Source: Collimonas silvisoli (GTDB lineage Bacteria > Pseudomonadota > Gammaproteobacteria > Burkholderiales > Burkholderiaceae_D). From it: DNA of 64,000 bases. The notes beneath the pieces are model-generated. The model had not been told where the DNA came from, ran no database searches, and worked only from the letters and a program-made list of their open reading frames with translations. Position 1 is the first letter of the stretch. Each line of letters begins with the position of its first letter. Below are positions 33,709 through 43,577 of this stretch, piece by piece. Position numbers and translations under genes: made by a program. The stretch spans positions 1 through 64,000 of the forward strand of contig NZ_JAGQEG010000006.1 of the NCBI RefSeq assembly GCF_018305005.1. The letters are read 5' to 3'.

Positions 33709-34953
33709 ATGAGCAATTATTCGATATTCAGCTTGATCCGCAATGGGCTCTCCTACCATGAGAACTGGCAGCGCGCCTGGAAGAGTCCGGAACCGAAAAA
33801 GGAATACGACATCGTCATCGTCGGCGGCGGCGGCCATGGTCTGGCTACCGCCTACTATCTGGCCAAGGTGCATGGCTTGCGCAATATCGCGGTGATCGAA
33901 AAAGGCTGGATCGGCGGCGGCAACACTGCCCGCAACACCACCATCGTGCGCTCGAATTATCTGTGGGACGAGTCGGCCATGTTGTATGAAAAAGCCATGC
34001 AGCTATGGGAAGGCTTGTCGCAGGATTTGAACTACAACGTCATGTTCAGCCAGCGCGGCGTGATGAACCTGGCGCATACCTTGCAGGATGTGCGCGATAC
34101 CGACCGCCGCATCAGCGCCAACCGGCTCAACGGCGTCGACGCCGAATGGCTGACGCCGGCGCAGGTCAAGGAAATCGTTCCCATCATTAATCTCAACAGC
34201 CACTATCCGGTGCTGGGCGCTTCGTTCCAGCGGCGCGGCGGCGTCGCCCGGCATGACGCGGTGGCCTGGGGTTTTGCCCGCGGCGCCGATGAGCGCGGCG
34301 TGGATATCCTCCAGAATTGCGGCGTCACCGGGATCCGGCGCGAGAATGGCGCGGTGACCGGGGTCGATACCGTCAAAGGTTTTATCAAGGCCAAGAAGGT
34401 TGCCGTGGTGGCTGCCGGGCATTCCAGTGTGCTGGCCGAGATGGCAGGCATCCGCCTGCCGCTGGAAAGCCACCCGTTGCAGGCGCTGGTGTCGGAGCCG
34501 ATCAAGCCGATCATCGATACGGTGGTGATGTCGAATGCCGTGCATGCCTATATCAGCCAGTCGGATAAAGGTGACTTGGTGATCGGCGCCGGCGTCGATC
34601 AATACACCGGCTACGGCCAGCGCGGCAGCTATCATGTCATCGAAGGAACCCTGCAGGCGATTGTCGAAATGTTCCCGGTGTTGAGCCGGGTCCGCATGAA
34701 CCGGCAGTGGGGCGGGATTGTCGATGTCTCGCCGGACGCCTGCCCGATTATTTCCAAGACGCCGGTCAAAGGCTTGTACTTCAATTGCGGCTGGGGCACC
34801 GGCGGTTTCAAGGCTACCCCGGGCTCGGGCTGGGTGTTCGCCCACACCATCGCCAATGACAACCCGCATCCCTTGAATGCGCCGTTTGCGTTGGACCGTT
34901 TCTATAACGGCCACCTGATCGATGAACACGGTGCCGCCGCTGTCGCCCACTAA
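33709..34953 (+). CDS. soxB: sarcosine oxidase beta subunit
   Basis: A 414-residue FAD-dependent oxidoreductase (DAO family) with an N-terminal dinucleotide motif [19 protein letters not shown] (about residues 27-45). The [18 protein letters not shown] region is characteristic of the heterotetrameric sarcosine oxidase beta chain, which binds FAD, covalent FMN and the substrate. The late [15 protein letters not shown] motif is intact. The enzyme converts sarcosine to glycine with formation of 5,10-methylene-THF. It is followed by an unusual structured repeat (34956-35072) before soxD, so the soxB-soxD gap of 174 bp is far larger than the overlapping junctions downstream. Confidence 0.96.
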
Positions 34954-34955
34954 TA

Positions 34956-35072
34956 GCGCCACTACAAACCTACTGCGCGGCCCACTGCCAGGTCTGCGAT
35001 GCTCGCTGTACTTTCGTACAGCTGCGCTTCTCAACCAGACAGTGAACCGCTCGCTACGGTTTGTAGAGGCGC
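34956..35072. repeat. structured repeat, copy A (inside the sox operon)
   Basis: A long imperfect hairpin begins 2 bp after the soxB stop. The outer stem 34956-34970 pairs with 35058-35072 at 14 of 15 positions. The interior 34966-35062 aligns without gaps to copy B (43306-43402), both 97 nt, with 79 identities. Identical blocks: AAACCTACTGCGCG (34966-34979) and CCGCTCGCTACGGTTT (35047-35062). The central 37 nt (34996-35032) match at 33 positions and end in a GCTGTAC-TTTC-GTACAGC apical hairpin. The arms between blocks are diverged yet mostly still pair (9 of 15). It encodes no plausible protein. No transposase is nearby. Confidence 0.85.
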
Positions 35073-35127
35073 CTTGGACAGCATTATTGAAGAAGCTAAA
35101 AAATCTGCTTTTTTTGGAGAAATTGCC

Positions 35128-35412
35128 ATGTTATTGATTACCTGCCCTTGGTGCGGGCCGCGCGCCGAGAGTGAATTCCATTGCGGCGGCGAAGCCGATA
35201 TCGCACGTCCGCTGGAAACCGAAAATATCAGCGATGAAGCATGGGGCGACTATCTGTTCATGCGCAAGAACCCGCGCGGCGTGCACCGCGAGCAGTGGCT
35301 GCACAGCCACGGCTGCCGGCGCTGGTTCATGGCCGAGCGCGACACCGTTACCTATGAATTCCTAAGCTACAGCAAGTTTGGCGAAAAGACTGCAAAAGGG
35401 AGTGCCACATGA
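35128..35412 (+). CDS. soxD: sarcosine oxidase delta subunit
   Basis: A 94-residue zinc protein. The four ligands expected from structural work on the heterotetrameric enzyme are all present at the standard positions: C6, C9, H59 and C63 (TCPWCG; LHSHGC). It has a structural role in the SoxBDAG complex. ATG 35128 follows GGAG; the longer open frame from 34999 runs through the repeat and is not coding. Its stop overlaps the soxA start (ATGA). Confidence 0.95.
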   Translation: MLLITCPWCGPRAESEFHCGGEADIARPLETENISDEAWGDYLFMRKNPRGVHREQWLHSHGCRRWFMAERDTVTYEFLSYSKFGEKTAKGSAT

Positions 35413-38400
35413 GCAACAGTCAAACCCATCGCCTCAAGAGCGGCGGCAGGATAGATCGTAACGCTGCGCTCAGTTTTACCTTTAACGGCAAGAGTTATCA
35501 AGGCTACCAGGGCGACACGCTGGCTTCGGCGCTGCTGGCGAATGGCGTGCATTTTGTGGCGCGCAGCTGGAAATATCATCGTCCGCGCGGCATCGTTACC
35601 GCCGGCGTGGAAGAGCCGAATGCGCTGGTGCAGCTGGAAACCGGCGCGTATACGGTGCCTAACGCCCGCGCTACGGAAATCGAGCTGTACCAGGGCTTGA
35701 GCGCAAGCAGCGTCAACGCCAGCCCCAGCATCGAGCATGACCGGATGGCGGTGACCCAGTTGTTTGCCCGTTTCATTCCGGCCGGCTTTTATTACAAGAC
35801 GTTCAAATGGCCGCGCAGCTGGTGGGGCAAGTACGAAGAGGTGATACGCGAAGCGGCCGGCTTCGGCAAGGCGCCGACCGCGCTTGATCCCGACCGCTAC
35901 GAAAAGACCTACGCCCATTGCGATGTGCTGGTTGCAGGCGCCGGCCCGGCCGGCCTGGCGGCAGCCTGGGTCGCCGCCAGCTCTGGCGCACGGGTGGTGC
36001 TGGTCGACGATCAATCGGAACTTGGCGGCAGTCTGTTGTCAGGCCCGGCCGTGATCGACGGTTTGCCGGCCGCAGCCTGGGTCGCCAAGATAGCCGCTGA
36101 TTTGCGGTGCTTGCCGGAGGTGACGATCTTGTCGCGCAGCACGGTGTTCGGCTATCAGGATCACAATCTGCTGACCGTGACCCAGCGCCTGAGCGAGCAC
36201 TTGCCGCTGGCAGCGCGCGGCCCGGTGCGCGAACGGCTGTGGAAGGTACGCGCCAAGCACGTGATACTGGCCACCGGCGCGCATGAGCGGCCGATCGTGT
36301 TCGGCAATAACGATCTGCCCGGCGTCATGCTGGCGTCGGCGGTGTCGACCTATATCCATCGCTACGGCGTGCTGCCGGGGCATAAAGCGGTGATCTTTAC
36401 CAACAACGACGATGCCTACCAGACTGCGCTGGATTTGAAGAGCAACGGCGCCGAGGTGACCGTGGTTGATCCGCGCGCTGTCAATGATAGCAACCACAGT
36501 AGTTTGCCGGCCGCCGCCAACCGGCAGGGCGTCAACATCATCAACGATGCCGTGGTGGTGACCGCCAACGGCGGCCGTCATGTCAAGATGGTGGAAGTGG
36601 CACGCCATCAGGATGGCGTGCCGGGACAGTTCGTTACCTCGATCGCCTGCGATCTGCTGGCTGTATCGGGGGGCTGGAATCCGGTGATTCATCTGTTCGC
36701 GCAATCCGGCGGCAAGGCGCACTGGAATAACGACAAAGCCTGTTTTGTGCCGGGTTCGGCGATGCAAAAGGAAACCAGCGCCGGCGCCGCCAACGGCGAT
36801 TTTAGCCTGAGCGGAGCCTTGCGCGACGGCGCTTTGGCGGCGCAGCAGGCGATGCTTGCGATCGGCTTGAAGCCGGTAGCGCTGCCCAACTGGAAAGTGG
36901 TGGAACTGTCCGAGGCCGCCATCATGCCCTTGTGGCTGGTGGGAGATCGCAAGCACGTGGGCCGTGGCCCCAAGCAGTTCGTCGATTACCAGAATGACGT
37001 GTCGGCGGCGGATATCCATCTGGCGGCGCGCGAGGGTTATCACTCGGTGGAACACGTCAAACGCTATACCGCGCTCGGCTTCGGCACCGATCAAGGCAAG
37101 CTTGGCAACATCAACGGCATGGCGATCCTGGCTGAAGTGCTGGGTAAGACCATCCCCGAAACCGGCACGACCACCTTCCGTCCGAACTACACGCCGGTGA
37201 CTTTCGGCACGGTGGCCGGGCGTGAGCTGGGCGAGTTCCTGACGCCGATCCGCAAGACTTGCATCCATCCCTGGCATCAGGAGCAGGGCGCCTTGTTTGA
37301 AGATGTCGGCAACTGGAAACGGCCCTGGTATTACCCGCGCGGCAAGGAAGATCTGCACGCTGCGGTAGCGCGCGAATGCCTGGCGGCGCGCAACAGCGTC
37401 GGCATCCTGGATGCATCGACCTTGGGCAAGATCGATGTGCAGGGGCCGGATGCGGTCACCTTGCTCAACTGGATCTACACCAATCCGTGGAACAAGCTGG
37501 AAGTCGGCAAGTGCCGCTACGGCCTGATGCTGGATGAAAACGGCATGGTGTTCGACGATGGCGTCACGGTGCGTTTGGCTGAACAGCATTTCCTGATGAG
37601 CACCACCACCGGCGGCGCGGCGCGGGTGCTGGACTGGATGGAGCGCTGGCTGCAAACCGAATGGCCGCATTTGAAAGTCAACCTGACCTCCGTCACCGAT
37701 CACTTCGCGACCTTCGCCGTAGTCGGCCCGAACGCCAGGCGCGTGTTGCAGAAGGTGTGCAAGGACATCGATTTTTCGAATGAAAAATTTCCTTTCATGT
37801 CGTTCCGCGAAGGCAGCATCAACAGCGTGTTCACCCGCATCATGCGGATCAGCTTTTCCGGCGAGCTGTCGTATGAAGTGAACGTGCCGGCCAACATGGG
37901 GCGCGCCATCTGGGATGCGATCATCGAAGCCGGCCAGGAGTTCGATATCACGCCCTACGGCACCGAGACCATGCATGTGCTGCGCGCGGAAAAGGGCTAC
38001 ATCATCGTCGGCCAGGATACCGACGGTTCGGTCACGCCGTTTGATCTGGGCATGGGCGGCCTGGTCGCCAAGTCCAAGGATTTCCTCGGCAAGCGTTCGC
38101 TGACGCGCTCCGATACCGCGCGCGACGACCGCAAGCAACTGGTTGGGCTGCTGAGCGAGGACAAGAATTTCGTCCTGCCTGAAGGCAGCCAGATTTTGGC
38201 AGAGCCTAGCAACGAACCGATTGCCAACATGATCGGCCATGTCACTTCCAGCTATTTCAGCCCGATCCTGCAGCGTTCGATAGCTTTCGCGCTGATCAAG
38301 GGCGGTCTGAACAAGATGGGGCAGGAGGTCAGCATTCCGCTGGCGAATGGACGCAATCTCGCGGCCAAGATCAGCAGCCTGGTGTTTTACGATGCAGAAG

Positions 38401-38423
38401 GAGTCCGTCAACATGTTGAATGA
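35409..38423 (+). CDS. soxA: sarcosine oxidase alpha subunit
   Basis: A 1004-residue protein of normal alpha-chain size. An N-terminal ferredoxin-like Fer2 domain (about 1-110) is followed by an NAD-binding flavoprotein region (VLVAGAGPAGLAAAWVAASSGARVVLVDDQ, about 176-205) and a C-terminal aminomethyltransferase (GCV_T) domain (about 600-1000), which accepts the methylene group onto tetrahydrofolate. It works with SoxB, SoxD and SoxG. The start overlaps soxD by 4 bp and the end overlaps soxG by 11 bp, so translation of the three is coupled. The 873-codon frame on the opposite strand is a shadow. Confidence 0.97.
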   Translation: MSNSQTHRLKSGGRIDRNAALSFTFNGKSYQGYQGDTLASALLANGVHFVARSWKYHRPRGIVTAGVEEPNALVQLETGAYTVPNARATEIELYQGLSASSVNASPSIEHDRMAVTQLFARFIPAGFYYKTFKWPRSWWGKYEEVIREAAGFGKAPTALDPDRYEKTYAHCDVLVAGAGPAGLAAAWVAASSGARVVLVDDQSELGGSLLSGPAVIDGLPAAAWVAKIAADLRCLPEVTILSRSTVFGYQDHNLLTVTQRLSEHLPLAARGPVRERLWKVRAKHVILATGAHERPIVFGNNDLPGVMLASAVSTYIHRYGVLPGHKAVIFTNNDDAYQTALDLKSNGAEVTVVDPRAVNDSNHSSLPAAANRQGVNIINDAVVVTANGGRHVKMVEVARHQDGVPGQFVTSIACDLLAVSGGWNPVIHLFAQSGGKAHWNNDKACFVPGSAMQKETSAGAANGDFSLSGALRDGALAAQQAMLAIGLKPVALPNWKVVELSEAAIMPLWLVGDRKHVGRGPKQFVDYQNDVSAADIHLAAREGYHSVEHVKRYTALGFGTDQGKLGNINGMAILAEVLGKTIPETGTTTFRPNYTPVTFGTVAGRELGEFLTPIRKTCIHPWHQEQGALFEDVGNWKRPWYYPRGKEDLHAAVARECLAARNSVGILDASTLGKIDVQGPDAVTLLNWIYTNPWNKLEVGKCRYGLMLDENGMVFDDGVTVRLAEQHFLMSTTTGGAARVLDWMERWLQTEWPHLKVNLTSVTDHFATFAVVGPNARRVLQKVCKDIDFSNEKFPFMSFREGSINSVFTRIMRISFSGELSYEVNVPANMGRAIWDAIIEAGQEFDITPYGTETMHVLRAEKGYIIVGQDTDGSVTPFDLGMGGLVAKSKDFLGKRSLTRSDTARDDRKQLVGLLSEDKNFVLPEGSQILAEPSNEPIANMIGHVTSSYFSPILQRSIAFALIKGGLNKMGQEVSIPLANGRNLAAKISSLVFYDAEGVRQHVE

Positions 38424-39018
38424 AACCCAGTTGTTCCAGGTGCAGCAAGAATCGCCGTTCATCGAATTGACGCAATCGTTGGCGCCGCTCGCGGCTGGCG
38501 CCAACCGTGCTGTCAGCATGGAAGAAAAACCCTTCCTCGAATTGATCAACATCAAGGGAGAAGCAGAATCCGCGGTGTTGCTGAAAGCGGTTAAAAACCT
38601 CACCGGCGCAGCCTTGCCGCTGCAACCCAACACGCTAGCCGAGAGCGAACAATTCACCATCTACTGGCTGGCGCCCAATGAATGGCTGATCCAGTCGAAA
38701 CAGCCACGCTTACCCGCGCTTTGCGCCGATCTGGCGGGCGCACTGGCAGGGGAGTTTGCCTCGGTGGTGGATGTCAGCAGCGGCAACACCAGCCTGGTGC
38801 TGAGCGGGGCCAAGGCGCGCGAGGTATTGCAGAAAGGCTGCCCGCTGGATTTCCATCCCGCCGTGTTCGCGCCCGGCCAATGCGCCCAGAGCCATTACTT
38901 CAAAGCGGGCGTCTTGCTGCGGCCGCTGGCCGATGGTGCTTATGAGCTGATCGTCCGGCGCAGTTTTGCCGATTATTTCGGGCGCATCCTGCTCGACGCT
39001 TGTCAGGAATATTTCTGA
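38413..39018 (+). CDS. soxG: sarcosine oxidase gamma subunit
   Basis: A 201-residue SoxG-family protein, related in fold to the GCV_T domain, which completes the folate chamber of the complex. Recognisable segments are YWLAPNEWLIQS (about 77-88) and DVSSGNTSLVLSGAKAREVLQKGCPLDFHP (about 118-147). ATG 38413 lies inside the soxA end with AAGGAG 9 bp upstream. The next gene starts at its last base (TGATG junction), so the folB-like protein is in the same translation-coupled unit. Confidence 0.93.
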   Translation: MLNETQLFQVQQESPFIELTQSLAPLAAGANRAVSMEEKPFLELINIKGEAESAVLLKAVKNLTGAALPLQPNTLAESEQFTIYWLAPNEWLIQSKQPRLPALCADLAGALAGEFASVVDVSSGNTSLVLSGAKAREVLQKGCPLDFHPAVFAPGQCAQSHYFKAGVLLRPLADGAYELIVRRSFADYFGRILLDACQEYF

Positions 39019-39461
39019 TGAAAAATGAAAACATCGTCAGCGGCGTACGCTGGCAAATCTTCGTCGAAGGTTTGTCGGTGACGACCCGCATCGGCCTGCA
39101 TCCGCACGAGCATGAGAAGCCGCAGGCGGTCGAGCTCGACATCGAGTTGTCCTACCGCACCGGCGGCAGCGGCCAGCATGACGACGACGCTGCTTCGGTG
39201 ATCGACTACGATCATTACTGCAGCGTGGTCACGGCTTTTCTGCAAGACAAGCCGCATACCCGATTGCTGGAGACGCTGGCGTCCGAGGTTGCCAGCTTGT
39301 CGTTTCGGGAATTCCCGATGCTGGATGAAATCCGTGTGGCGATCCATAAACCGAAGATTCGCCACAACACGGCCCGCCTGGGCGTGGCTTCAAGCTGGAA
39401 CCGCTGGAGTTACGAAACCTTGTTGCTGCAGCAGCCGTTGGAGAGCAGCGTTGCGGCTTGA
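39018..39461 (+). CDS. FolB-like (dihydroneopterin aldolase family) protein of the sox operon
   Basis: A 147-residue tunnelling-fold protein. The family catalytic Glu is kept in RIGLHPHEHEKPQ, as is the later Lys in AIHKPKIRHN, along with VIDYDHYCSVV and LLETLASEVASL. FolB converts dihydroneopterin to 6-hydroxymethyl-dihydropterin in folate synthesis. Here it is the last gene of soxBDAG, whose enzyme uses tetrahydrofolate, and it occupies the place where Pseudomonas carries purU. It may raise folate supply during betaine growth or act on a different pterin. A housekeeping folB is presumably elsewhere. A terminator follows at 39550. Confidence 0.85.
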   Translation: MKNENIVSGVRWQIFVEGLSVTTRIGLHPHEHEKPQAVELDIELSYRTGGSGQHDDDAASVIDYDHYCSVVTAFLQDKPHTRLLETLASEVASLSFREFPMLDEIRVAIHKPKIRHNTARLGVASSWNRWSYETLLLQQPLESSVAA

Positions 39462-39822
39462 GTTGTGAATAGCAACCGCGTTCAAGAAAATCCGATTTGA
39501 TGTTGATGTAAATCAAAATCTCATCCACGACAGTTCTCTACCGATAATCAAGCCCGCAGCCCGCACCTGCGGGCTTTTGGTTTTATGCGGCAGTGCGGCA
39601 TAAATCTGCTTTGTTTTTTTATCGGCAACGCTGCAAATTGCCCTGGATTCGTCTACCATTTGCCATGAGCCGCACTATTCAAACCACAACTTTACAAAAT
39701 AATTTTCTTTCCCAGAAGCATCTTCAATCGCAGAGATATCGGTCACCGAGAAACCGAATCGATGGACATTGTGCTAATGTCGCTGCCAACTAATTTTCAC
39801 TAGCGTACCCAGGAGACCATCA
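39462..39822. other. intergenic region folB-like / maeB
   Basis: 361 bp containing the terminator at 39550-39583 and presumably the maeB promoter. No clear promoter hexamers or operator are visible, and I see no gene. GC is lower than in the flanking genes. Confidence 0.5.
39550..39583 (+). terminator. intrinsic terminator after the sox-folB operon
   Basis: A perfect 10-bp stem AAGCCCGCAG (39550-39559) with CTGCGGGCTT (39567-39576), a 7-nt loop, followed by TTGGTTTT. Confidence 0.85.
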
Positions 39823-42132
39823 ATGAGCAACCCAACCACTCTTTCTGCGGCCGAACAGGCCCTGCGCGACGCTGCGCTCGAATATCATCGCAGCCCGACG
39901 CGCGGCAAGATCGCCGTGGTGCCAACCAAACCATTGTCCAACCAGCGCGACCTGTCGCTGGCTTACTCGCCCGGCGTGGCATACGCCTGCCTGGCGATCC
40001 ATGAAGATCCGGAGCTGGCGGTGGAATACACCTCGCGCGCCAACTTGGTGGGCGTGGTCACCAACGGCACCGCGGTGCTTGGCCTGGGCGACATCGGACC
40101 GCTAGCCGGCAAGCCGGTAATGGAAGGCAAGGGCTGCCTGTTCCATAATTTTGCCGGCATCGATGTGTTCGACATCGAACTGGCCGAGCGCGATCCGGAC
40201 AAGCTGGTCGAAATCATCGCCGCGCTGGAGCCGACGCTGGGCGGCATCAACCTGGAAGACATCAAGGCGCCGGAATGCTTCTATATCGAAAAGAAGCTGC
40301 GCGAGCGCATGAAGATCCCGGTCTTTCACGATGACCAGCACGGTACCGCCATCATTTCCTCGGCAGCCTTGTTGAACGGGCTGGAACTGGTCAACAAGAA
40401 GATCGGCGAAGTCAAGCTGGTGGCCTCTGGCGCCGGAGCGGCGGCGATTGCCTGCCTGGACCTGATGGTCGAGCTGGGCGTCAAGCGCGAAAACATTTTC
40501 GTCTGCGATTCGCGGGGCGTGATTCACGACAAACGCGAAGACAAGCTGGATATCTCCAAGCAGCGCTACCAGCAAACCACCAATGCCCGCACCCTGGCGG
40601 AGGCGATTGTCGACGCCGATGTATTCCTCGGCTGTTCCGCGCCCGGCGTGCTGACCCAGGAAATGGTCAAGACCATGGGTTCGCGGCCTATCATCCTGGC
40701 GCTGGCCAACCCGGAACCGGAAATCCGTCCTGAACTGGCGCTGGAGGCGCGGCCGGATTGCATTATCGCCACCGGCCGTTCGGACTATCCGAACCAGGTC
40801 AACAACGTGCTGTGTTTCCCCTATATTTTCCGCGGCGCGCTGGATTGCGGCGCCACCAGCATCACGGAAGCGATGAAGGTCGCATGCGTGCGCGAGATCG
40901 CCGACTTGACCAAGGCTGAGATCAGCGAAGAAGTGGCCTCCGCCTATGCCGGCCAGGAGCTGCATTTCGGTCCGGAATACATCATTCCGAAACCTTTCGA
41001 TTCACGCCTGATTTTGCGTATCGCGCCGGCGGTTGCACGTGCTGCTGAAGAATCAGGTGTGGCGACGCGCCCGATCAAGGACATGGAGGCCTATCGCCAA
41101 TCGCTGATGCGTTTCGTCAGCCACACCGGCATGTTCATGCGTCCGGTGTTCCTGGCGGCGCGCGGCGAACCGCAACGCATCGTCTACGCCGAGGGTGAAG
41201 ATGAACGGGTGTTGCGTGCGGTGCAGATCGCGCTCGAAGAAAAACTGGTGCGGCCTATCCTGATCGGCCGCCCGGCGGTGATCGAGGCGCGCATCAAGCG
41301 CGCCGGCTTGCGTTTGCAGGCCGGCCGCGATTTCGAACTGGTCAATCCGGAAGACGATGTCCGTTTCCGCCAATACTGGGAAACCTATCACGAGATCAAG
41401 GCGCGCGACGGCGTCACGCCCGAGATGGCGAAATCGACATTGCGCCGTTCGAATACCACCATCGCCTCGCTGCTGGTCAAGCTGGGCGACGCCGACGGCA
41501 TGCTGTGCGGCCTGGTCGGGCGTTTCGATAGTCATCTGGAACATGTGAGCGATATCATCGGCCTGCGCGAAGGCGCCAAGTGCTTCGCCACCATGAACGG
41601 CCTGGTGCTCGACAAGCACACCTTGTTTATCGCCGATACCTTTGTCAACGACGATCCGGACGCCGAGCAACTGGCCGATATCGCAGCGATGGCGGTGGAA
41701 GAAGTAAAACGCTTCGGCGTGCCGCCCAAGGTGGCGTTCCTGTCGCATTCGATGTTCGGCTCCAGCAGCCGGCCGTCGGCCAAGAAAATGCGCGCCGCCC
41801 GCGACTTGTTCGTCAAGCGCAGGCCGGATGTCGAAGCCGATGGCGAAATGCACGGCGATGCCGCCTTGAGTGCAGAGGTGAGGGCGCAGTTCCTGCCGAA
41901 ATCGACCCTGAGCGGCGACGCCAACGTGCTGGTGACACCGAACCTGGATGCCGCCAATATCCTGTTCAACGTGTTGAAGATGACCGGCGGCCAGGGCGTG
42001 ACGGTGGGGCCGGTGCTGCTCGGCGCTGCGGCTCCGGTGCACATCCTGAACCCGTCGGCGACGGTGCGCCGGGTGGTCAACATGACTGCGCTGGTGGTGG
42101 CAAACGCTATTTCTGCCAAGCAGGAAATGTAA
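39823..42132 (+). CDS. maeB: NADP-dependent malic enzyme (MaeB type)
   Basis: A 769-residue two-part enzyme. The N-terminal malic enzyme (about 1-430) has [36 protein letters not shown], the FHDDQHGTA metal site and the nucleotide loop [15 protein letters not shown]. The C-terminal phosphotransacetylase-like domain (about 430-769; [30 protein letters not shown]) is regulatory in this class and binds acetyl-CoA. It makes pyruvate and NADPH from malate. AGGAGACCATCA precedes the ATG. It stands alone behind a terminator, so its link to betaine catabolism is positional only, though NADPH and pyruvate metabolism connect them. Confidence 0.96.
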
Positions 42133-42148
42133 ATAGTTGACGGTAATC

Positions 42149-42194
42149 GGGGACAGAGTTCAGGCGCCGCAGCGCGGCGCATGGCTCTGTCCCC
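42149..42194. repeat. inverted repeat, GGGGACAGAG class (REP-like)
   Basis: The outer arms GGGGACAGAG (42149-42158) and CTCTGTCCCC (42185-42194) pair perfectly. Inside is a second stem, GCGCCGC (42164-42170) with GCGGCGC (42174-42180). It lies 16 bp after the maeB stop, between two converging genes, where it may stop or stabilise transcripts. The arms differ from the GGGGTCAGAGT element at 13094 but share the GGGG-CAGAG pattern, suggesting related families. Confidence 0.8.
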
Positions 42195-42278
42195 ACAGTC
42201 GGGTTTTGTTTTGTTATCGGCGACACATGAGAAGGTTTTTACCCGGGGAGGCTGAAATGTACAGCTGCAATCGGGTTC

Positions 42279-43292
42279 TTACGTTGCCGACAAAGCGCGC
42301 CGATGTTCGCCCGGACTGCTTCCGGTCCATTTCTTGAAGGCCCGATGGAAAGCGCTGGAATCGGCAAAACCAAGGCTGAGCGCAATTTCTTCAATGCTCC
42401 TGGCGGAGCCGCTCAAATAATTGATGGCCAGATCGCGCCGCAGATTGTCCTTGATCGCCTGATACGATTGTCCTTCCTGGCCAAGCTTGCGGCGCAAGGT
42501 CGACGCCGGCGTATGCAGTTGTTTCGACAAACTGTCGAAGTCTGACCATTCGGTCAGCGGCAGCTGGCGCAGATGGCGTCGGATGGTGGCCGCCAGGCTA
42601 TCGTGATTGCTGTATTTCACCAGCAGGTTGCCGGGCGCTTCGCGCAGGAAGGATTGCAGCGAACGCTGGTTTTGCACTATCGGCAACGCCAGGCAAGCCG
42701 CATCGAAAGTGATGGCGGTCTGCTGCTGGCTGAAGCGGGCCTGGTCGCAAAAGCGGATCTTGTAATCGAGGCTGGCCGACGGCTCCTCACAACGAAAATC
42801 TGCCGACAACAATTGAATGCGGCGTCCGATCAGCCAGCTGCCGACGCCATGCACGATCATCAGGAAGGTGCCGTAGGCAAACATGCGGCGCGGGCTGCCG
42901 GTGTCGTTGATGACGATGCGCGCCAGGCCGTCTTGTTCCGAGAGCGTCGCCGACATATCGTCCAGCACCAGCCGCAGGAAATCCAGAGTGCGTGCCAGAG
43001 CCTTGCCGAGATTGGCGCTGTGCAGGGCGCTGCGGCACAGCATGTTGAAACTGCCGACCCGCATCGGATGGCTATCCATGCCGAAAAATTCATCATCCAT
43101 GGCGTGCGCGATCAGATACCACAGCTTGCCGTAGTTGGCGGCGGCGACCCGAGCGTGCGGCGTGCTCAGCCAACGCGGAGAAATACCGGCCTCAAGCAGC
43201 AGCGTTTCAGTATCCATGCCGCGTTGGCGCATGCTGTGCAGCGCTTCATCGACAAAGCTGATAGCGATCGTTCCCTTTTCCCAATCTTCCAT
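42279..43292 (-). CDS. AraC-family transcriptional regulator (OruR/ArgR-like)
   Basis: A 337-residue regulator with an N-terminal arabinose-binding-like domain (PF12625-type, about 10-200) and a C-terminal helix-turn-helix pair (about 235-330) including SIEEIALSLGFADSSAFHRAFKKWTGSSP. The start taken is ATG 43292, preceded by AAGGTGG. The longer frame to 43442 would be translated through the structured repeat and is rejected. It is divergent from the acyl-CoA synthetase/SDR pair, its probable targets. The ribosome site lies inside one arm of repeat copy B, so the leader could fold over it. Confidence 0.88.
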   Translation of the reverse strand: MEDWEKGTIAISFVDEALHSMRQRGMDTETLLLEAGISPRWLSTPHARVAAANYGKLWYLIAHAMDDEFFGMDSHPMRVGSFNMLCRSALHSANLGKALARTLDFLRLVLDDMSATLSEQDGLARIVINDTGSPRRMFAYGTFLMIVHGVGSWLIGRRIQLLSADFRCEEPSASLDYKIRFCDQARFSQQQTAITFDAACLALPIVQNQRSLQSFLREAPGNLLVKYSNHDSLAATIRRHLRQLPLTEWSDFDSLSKQLHTPASTLRRKLGQEGQSYQAIKDNLRRDLAINYLSGSARSIEEIALSLGFADSSAFHRAFKKWTGSSPGEHRRALSAT

Positions 43293-43415
43293 ATGACCAC
43301 CTTTAAAACCTACTGCGCGACTCAATCTCGGGGCGGCGATGCTCACGGTACTTGCGTACGGCTGCGCTTCTCGCCCCGAGATTGAGCCGCTCGCTACGGT
43401 TTTATAGGTGGCCAT
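43293..43415. repeat. structured repeat, copy B (leader of the AraC regulator)
   Basis: A near-perfect long hairpin abuts the regulator's start codon. The outer arms 43293-43310 and 43398-43415 pair at 16 of 18 positions. The inner arms 43321-43335 and 43372-43386 pair perfectly over 15 bp. The core (43336-43372) ends in GTAC-TTGC-GTAC. The conserved blocks AAACCTACTGCGCG (43306-43319) and CCGCTCGCTACGGTTT (43387-43402) are identical to copy A (34956-35072). Compared with copy A the arms differ by whole base pairs (for example A-T to C-G, C-G to G-C, G-C to T-A), which indicates selection on or generation of a folded form. Confidence 0.85.
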
Positions 43416-43577
43416 AAAACCATTAGATAGTAGATATTGCAATTCCGATCAAATTCATTGATCGCTTTTAACATGGTTGTCAGCCACTAATTATCCTAGA
43501 CTTGGCTGCGGCAGTTCCATTTCTCATAAGAACAAGAGCAGATCAAGCCTGCCATTCTAGGTTAGAGGAGAACACTC

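Follow-up and report, generated by a model that had tools for sequence, protein, structure and literature searches.

Copies A and B in the window

The window, which is the whole stretch of DNA analysed (64,000 nucleotides), carries two copies, A and B, of a structured repeat. The features of both copies and of the adjoining open reading frames (ORFs) are listed below, R2 being one of the covariance models described in the next section.

33709 to 34953, plus strand: soxB-like ORF (gene name from the first-pass annotation), a neighbour outside the element that ends directly before copy A
34954 to 35073, minus strand: copy A, whole element (folded "G-form"; positions 1-120 of model R2; R2 score 117.6 bits; fold z -8.27)
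34954 to 34969: copy A outer stem, arm 1, paired with 35058-35073; starts right after the TAA of the soxB-like ORF
34970 to 34979, minus strand: copy A outer internal-loop box; the minus strand reads CGCGCAGTAG
34980 to 34995: copy A middle stem (stem 2), arm 1, from the A/B comparison; helix 3 of the co-variation analysis
34996 to 35004, minus strand: copy A inner internal-loop box; the minus strand reads GAGCATCGC
35005 to 35022, minus strand: copy A terminal hairpin, with a GTAC stem and a GAAA loop on the minus strand, from the fold
35023 to 35032, minus strand: copy A inner internal-loop box, other side; the minus strand reads GAGAAGCGCA
35033 to 35046: copy A middle stem (stem 2), arm 2, from the A/B comparison
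35047 to 35057, minus strand: copy A outer internal-loop box, other side; the minus strand reads GTAGCGAGCGG
35058 to 35073: copy A outer stem, arm 2, paired with 34954-34969
42279 to 43292, minus strand: ORF read as a putative AraC-type regulator, a neighbour outside the element; its ATG (43292-43290) adjoins copy B
43294 to 43413, minus strand: copy B, whole element (G-form; R2 score 115.7 bits; fold z -11.95)
43306 to 43319, minus strand: copy B block 1, containing the outer internal-loop box
43320 to 43335: copy B middle stem, arm 1 on plus, the 3' arm of the minus fold; GAGATTG, the same in ortholog L059
43336 to 43372, minus strand: copy B inner internal loop and terminal hairpin
43373 to 43386: copy B middle stem, arm 2 on plus, the 5' arm of the minus fold; CAATCTC, the exact complement of GAGATTG
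43387 to 43402, minus strand: copy B block 2, containing the outer internal-loop box; the minus strand reads GTAGCGAGCGG

The 97-nt interiors of the two copies (34966-35062 and 43306-43402) align without gaps, with identities, in order, of 14/14, 8/16, 33/37 (the centre), 8/14 and 16/16, that is, with identical end blocks and arms that match at about half of their positions. These counts, given in the first-pass annotation, were reproduced exactly. The arms are complementary inside each copy and differ between copies, and the same was observed for the outer stem beyond the identical blocks. Both regions folded better than any of 200 dinucleotide shuffles, with z-scores of -6.0 (plus strand) and -8.27 (minus strand) for copy A (34950-35078) and of -10.0 and -11.95, respectively, for copy B (43290-43418). 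The element exceeds the length first given for it, as the paired part reaches further out in the model matches to A and B.

At 43285-43310, copy B reaches as far as the start codon of the regulator-like ORF on the minus strand, whose mechanical call extends to 43442. Within the outer stem of copy B lies a probable Shine-Dalgarno sequence, AAAGGTGG (GGAGGTGG in ortholog L059), which means that folding could mask the ribosome site. The leader of this ORF is absent from the empty B sites read in relatives.

Anatomy and spread of the family

A covariance model built from eight copies of the window genome (R1; double changes in 24 of 46 pairs by RNAalifold) returned 22 rows in that genome, which correspond to 14 copies, two of them degenerate, once seven echoes on the opposite strand and one palindrome lacking the motifs are subtracted. 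The element had been described as a two-copy repeat, and this number has to be corrected. The 15 genomes searched within the genus all gave matches to R1, with at least 2 to at least 24 rows each, these rows including some opposite-strand echoes and the per-genome numbers being lower bounds; genome G019 gave at least 81 rows. Model R2 matched 141 of the 245 genomes of the taxonomic family, representing 32 of 44 genera, and 20 of the 369 genomes of the class, the window genome included. With 9 (class) or 14 (family) candidates scored per genome for R2, and 81 for R1, copy numbers are lower bounds. A pattern scan, in which the pattern fixes GTAGCGAGCGG, yielded at least 120 stretches in Janthinobacterium, Massilia, Telluria, Ralstonia, Cupriavidus, Herbaspirillum, Undibacterium, Uliginosibacterium, Zoogloea, Azoarcus, a Gallionellaceae MAG, a Solimonas MAG, and others. 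Together, 32 copies from model loci and 101 from the scan form the set of 133 copies referred to below.

On the minus strand, the 5' side of the element consists of a variable outer stem (about 13-16 bp), CCGTAGCGAGCGG, a variable middle stem, and GAGAAGCGCAG, followed by the hairpin; the 3' side then presents CGAGCATCGC, the middle stem, CCGCGCAGTAGG, and the outer stem. Four minus-strand boxes are near-constant among the 133 copies, namely GTAGCGAGC (130/133), GAGAAGCGCA (102/133), GAGCATCGC (103/133), and GCGCAGTAG (102/133), where near-consensus boxes were demanded by the pattern. The AAACC/GGTTT ends are not constant across the wider family, and the outer arms vary even between copies of one genome. 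To the eye, a single motif, GAGC facing GCGCA, seems to recur in both internal loops, the two instances being opposed head to head across the middle stem. With 120-140 nt, the element is a long stem-loop that is too short for a transposase gene.

Several variants were observed. Copies L045, L046, and L047 (C45, C235, and C165 of the window genome) have the outer box GTAGCGAGCGG swapped for sequence like GTAGCCTCAGCTGCGCTGACTTGG and carry an additional small hairpin within the internal loop. Three Janthinobacterium copies, L149 (Janthinobacterium sp. LM6), L364, and L365, contain two additional segments, which in L149 are GGCTCGGCGCCCCC and its reverse complement in different arms of one element; they form a repeat nested in the repeat and perhaps pair with each other. 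A shortened copy of the window genome (L056, C110:42378-42469) has the same flanks as the full-length L078 and appears to result from a deletion within the element, between its two GCGAGC repeats.

At the class level, 21 loci were collected, L333 and L334 being left out of the reading and L336, which has no boxes, probably being a chance palindrome; 19 loci were aligned. In 18 of the 21, the outer and middle boxes are accompanied by a third internal loop further in, and these long forms mostly measure about 140 nt. A model built from long-form loci (R3) matched the short form in 8/8 loci (65-78 bits) and a copy in Aeromonas caviae (L370; 74.7 bits), which places short and long forms in one superfamily. 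Copy A had no match in phages and copy B had none in plasmids; one Aeromonas record classed with the plasmids matched a long-form copy.

The proposal that no named family fits held against Rfam, whose 4227 models gave no match at gathering threshold in the window and none at E<=1 in 17 loci holding other copies; at E<=1 in 34850-43520 there was a single weak match, away from A and B. At title level, literature searches, by core sequence strings among others, returned no description of this element family. Copies A and B belong to a large family of putative mobile elements of about 120 bases, present in many proteobacteria and apparently undescribed so far. Sequence is the usual basis for recognising small intergenic repeats, so that a family conserved in shape can spread through many genera unseen.

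Co-variation, folded strand, and position behind stop codons

Among 61 diverse copies (<80% identity), double compensatory changes were observed in 33 of 41 pairs. The proportion of paired cells was 93.7%, compared with 69.4% after shuffling (0/500) and 31-38% after sliding, and the co-variation score was 0.645 compared with 0.182. The outer stem (helix 1) showed double changes in 15/15 pairs, some of which present all six standard pair types. The constant loops with co-varying arms that had been read from two copies were therefore borne out across the family by the search of related genomes and the covariance model that had been proposed for this purpose, and the copies did not prove to be remnants of one known IS or MITE with fixed ends, as far as the tools allowed.

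Comparison of 37 pairs of orthologous copies showed differences at 48 of 1369 box positions (3.5%, the pattern limiting the possible box difference), at 371 of 2758 stem positions (13.5%), and at 1511 of 10656 flank positions (14.2%). Box conservation is partly the result of selection in the 133 copies, for which near-consensus boxes were demanded, and in the at least 120 stretches, for which GTAGCGAGCGG was fixed; the R1 and R2 model searches are free of this bias, and the boxes are kept in most model matches not selected for them.

The suggestion that the arms are re-templated stood in one clear instance. In copy B, two substitutions relative to L059, which carries the common CAAGGTC where copy B has CAATCTC, bring one arm segment into exact complementarity with the other arm, which is unchanged, as would template switching in a hairpin. 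Most of the outer-stem pair differences between orthologs (32 double with pairing kept, 45 single kept, 40 single broken, and 9 double broken) look instead like ordinary stepwise pair evolution. The same instance could be taken as a sign that the whole pattern is a mutational artefact, in which quasi-palindrome arms are copied by template switching and co-vary without selection. This is very improbable, because such copying should erase the unpaired loops too, yet the loops are best conserved, also in the model matches mentioned above, and strand-biased wobble pairs would not be expected.

The two strands of the element are not equivalent. On the minus strand, 307 G-T cells were counted against 72 A-C cells in the 133 copies. 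The register of stem 2 was chosen for maximal pairing, which favours G-T; it was fixed in the outer stem and the hairpin, where the ratios are 121:22 and 28:5, respectively. Four-base loops (n=109) are of GNRA type in 24 cases on the minus strand versus 3 on the other, and folding energies favour the minus form in 129 of 133 copies under RNA parameters and in 133 of 133 under DNA parameters. Selection on the fold acts on the minus strand of the window. These wobble, loop, and stability data identify the strand and not the molecule, DNA or RNA; G-T wobble and GNA-type loops are favourable in DNA too. Exposure of the folded strand on the lagging-strand template was considered and rejected, since 33 of 43 copies in three congeners, many of them orthologous, have it on the leading-strand template, with origin and terminus sampled by GC skew in G008 and G010 and taken as position 0 in G005.

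The position of the copies relative to genes was analysed with simple open-frame rules (frames of at least 100 codons) rather than gene annotation, and stop codons were counted for 119 of 121 pattern matches (L122 and L144, without second box, were left out). On the opposite strand, an open-frame stop codon lies within 80 nt in 94 of 119 copies. A stop codon 12-18 nt away from the outer loop box was found in 67/119 copies on one side versus 8/119 on the other, so that the outer stem usually begins a few nucleotides past the stop; on the other side, stop codons within 80 nt occur in 65/119 copies and are widely scattered. Five of the ten parsable copies of the window genome are 15-16 nt from such a stop, and one more has it on the opposite side. 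By the same rules, 48 of the 133 copies lie between genes co-directional on the opposite strand, 31 between convergent genes, 22 between mirrored co-directional genes, and 16 between divergent genes, 16 being undefined. The selected strand is thus mostly antisense to the adjoining gene.

Two explanations of this placement were rejected. The TA of the stop codon as an insertion target is not supported by codon usage, TGA accounting for 28 of 67 stops beside copies versus 487 of 941 elsewhere (p 0.13). An intrinsic terminator would require a U-tract, which is lacking on the gene-sense strand of the 119 copies (T frequency 0.11-0.39 at positions 16-30 past the outer box).

Because of the stop-codon position, the strongest rival to a mobile element is a 3'-UTR RNA element, in which the sense transcript (plus for copy A) forms a long hairpin after the stop and controls the stability of the mRNA 3' end, termination, or ribosome-coupled cleavage, mobility being secondary. 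Such an element would account for the fixed orientation flush behind stop codons, and the length of the outer stem (about 13-16 nt) is similar to that of the mRNA covered by a terminating ribosome. The same slot can hold terminator-like hairpins or other palindromes in relatives, and ERIC, for which such control is reported in Yersinia, provides a precedent in the orientation-dependent mRNA destabilisation described in the excerpted text of PMC2229807. However, the non-canonical pairs (307:72) and the loops (24:3) favour the opposite strand, the sense strand folds worse in 129/133 copies, and the hairpin is not followed by a U-tract, which leaves this explanation possible but doubtful.

A functional RNA could instead be read from the minus (G-form) strand, as a family of small RNAs, antisense or trans-acting, whose internal loops are conserved. 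The wobble pairs and GNRA loops would fit such an RNA, and at the 31 of 133 copies between convergent genes the minus strand can be a 3' UTR, by the simple ORF calls. On the other hand, 48 of 133 copies lie between two genes that are both antisense to the minus strand, there is no Rfam match at the copies, and DNA folding energies give the same strand preference, and this alternative appears rather unlikely.

A further system with this geometry is the integron attC site, which is a folded single strand of variable sequence whose unpaired positions are conserved and which lies behind the stop of a gene to which it is antisense. An attC-like site, with a bottom strand folded directly behind stops and recognised via unpaired bases while its sequence is otherwise free, would share with the element a folded strand antisense to the preceding gene and beside its stop, and two box pairs around variable stems. 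Some Janthinobacterium outer stems (e.g., L088) contain GTCTAAC/GTTAGAC, strings that resemble integron attC core sites and were not seen in the other genera read. In contrast, A lies beside an operon gene and B beside a regulator, not beside cassettes, the copies are dispersed and orthologous between species, and the boxes are not known to match those of attC, so that an attC-like origin is extremely improbable.

Different hairpins replace each other in one slot behind stop codons. At L372, L388, L389, and L391 in congeners, orthologous slots behind the same stops hold GTAGGGTGGGC...GCCCACCCTAC-like palindromes or terminator-like hairpins; the former resemble RAYT-REPs printed in the excerpt of PMC2817692. 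In Massilia, the frames before copies L109, L153, and L169 end almost identically, with CGCTTTGG(G/A)TAG, perhaps as paralogous genes that took the element along.

Gain and loss, candidate mobilising proteins, and comparison with known systems

Empty sites were searched with the flanks of nine copies against the genus, and the figures refer to the matches listed. As the first-pass annotation had proposed looking for, empty sites were found in congeners for both copies: among these matches, no insertion interrupts site A in nine congeners (L214-L222), and site B, filled in G009, is spanned without a full copy in twelve congeners, ten of which were read. At site B in L232, remnants of the outer stem persist, which indicates a loss, and at site L038 three species retain an apparent single outer arm, so that losses occur too. 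Comparison of the filled and empty B site (CTTCCA-TA-element-TA-AAACC versus CTTCCATAAATCC) fits a short TA-containing duplication, as do L046 and the Janthinobacterium site L201; L041, L045, L097, L114, and L195 have lost or replaced sequence instead, and further sites are ambiguous. TA flanks as a general signature were rejected, TA being raised together with AT, CG, and GC; the test is weak for this reason, the arms being complementary. These comparisons show that copies come and go between species. As many copies are old orthologs and some of the absences reflect losses, presence or absence is no proof of current mobility.

The first-pass annotation had suggested a mobile element that works as one folded strand, with which the strand asymmetry and the presence or absence between species agree. 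Candidate mobilising proteins were searched in six genomes each. A Y1_Tnp (RAYT-type) match was found in every genome, with eight loci in all, and none of the eight had the element within about 1.5 kb. A hairpin of at least 12 pairs with a bare GTAG loop, the expected excision product, was not found in 1.2 Mb. An IS630-type DDE_3 domain (PF13358) occurred in one of the six element-bearing genomes, at a locus without a copy (best score 10.1 bits, L371). Neither the Y1_Tnp nor the DDE_3 search in these genomes identified a partner protein for the element.

These results bear on a REP/BIME-type origin, in which a RAYT mobilises an element with a GTAG head beside an imperfect palindrome. The element has GTAG at the foot of the inner hairpin, enclosed by the outer co-varying stem, Y1_Tnp matches were obtained in 6/6 genomes, and REPs are likewise non-autonomous, palindromic, and intergenic, with GTAG by the hairpin and preserved pairing, in the excerpted account of PMC2817692. 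According to the same excerpt, RAYT genes are always flanked by their REPs and this association defines REPs, whereas here 0/8 Y1_Tnp loci have the element and no bare GTAG-loop hairpin was found in the 1.2 Mb. Moreover, the element is several times longer, a rod of 120-140 nt with two or three conserved internal loops and variable stems. A RAYT/REP origin was rejected on these grounds and is very unlikely.

An IS630-type MITE was also rejected, as the outer arms differ within one genome and PF13358, the only profile run for it, was present in 1/6 bearing genomes with no copy beside it. Correia/NEMIS, RUP, and other TA-target MITEs have terminal inverted repeats recognised by sequence, as the excerpt of PMC2229807 describes them. 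The element resembles them in being small and non-autonomous, with a fit to a short TA-containing duplication at some sites, and differs from them in that its terminal arms vary and co-vary and in the restriction of DDE_3 to 1/6 bearing genomes. YPAL/RU-2 (Yersinia palindromic sequence, 168 bp) is palindromic and intergenic, targets sites near dyad symmetry, and shows irregular duplications (PMC2229807, in excerpt); the likeness of the element to it in these features is one of description.

Among known systems, the element would work most like ERIC/IRU. As described in the excerpts of PMC2229807 and PMC10969869, ERIC (IRU, RU-1) is a dispersed, non-autonomous element of 127 bp forming a long imperfect hairpin, with TA at its ends and target duplication, copies at gene 3' ends, and no known mobilising enzyme. 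The likeness to these partial descriptions thus extends over size, non-autonomy, folded form, position at gene 3' ends, and the lack of a known enzyme; a TA-containing duplication fits three of the sites compared and does not fit five others. With about even confidence, the family of A and B is assigned to non-autonomous mobile elements of ERIC/IRU type (structured MITEs) whose folded strand would be recognised by its shape. The near-constant head-to-head loops, the free stems of near-fixed length, the single preferred strand, and the presence or absence between species together suggest that a symmetric protein recognises the folded strand of a mobile element.

The minus strand of the copies folds into a rod of three variable stems with two near-constant asymmetric internal loops between them. 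In an ERIC/IRU-type mobile element, the head-to-head loop motifs are what a two-fold symmetric protein would be expected to bind if it recognised the shape and spacing of the loops and not stem sequence, and a putative recombinase or transposase would recognise the folded strand and move the element. Recognition by this protein would keep the loops fixed, while the stems would drift in compensated steps, sometimes via intrastrand template switching. Copies often settle directly behind stops, with the folded strand antisense to the gene, in a slot used in relatives by terminators or other palindromes. The data show the family itself, its co-variation and strand asymmetry, its placement at stop codons, and its presence or absence between species; the protein, its use of folded single-stranded DNA and not RNA as a substrate, and the cause of the placement are inferred.

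A stricter form, in which shape is the recognition code, a dedicated protein reading the two head-to-head loop motifs on one folded strand while stems and ends are free, is put forward tentatively; if true, it would amount to a new type of transposition or recombination system, one that either gave rise to ERIC or runs parallel to it. If the ERIC-like reading is real, the family would be searchable with model R2, with the clear prediction of a loop-reading protein, and would offer a test case for how ERIC-like elements move and for why copies come to lie directly behind stops. It would also mean that strong RNA-like co-variation can belong to mobile DNA, on the strand opposite to neighbouring genes, a caution for covariance-based RNA discovery.

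ERIC itself was compared with the models. One E. coli ERIC copy, folded on both strands, gave -58.2 versus -44.0, one strand being clearly better. In the E. coli locus psuT-yeiL, ERIC was the best match to R2 and R3; both loci examined are the same site in two strains and represent one independent ERIC copy. The R2 score (10.1 bits, E 0.34) is at the level of chance matches (10.0 in the same locus and 10.1 in L371), and the R3 score (10.5 bits, E 0.032) is not significant either. As neither model gave ERIC a significant score and the RAYT association failed, the element is placed with structured MITEs, outside any named family. Several three-loop copies among the class-wide loci (L320-L345) and L370 have the inner loop GGAG/TGA, which by eye is like the inner loop of ERIC.
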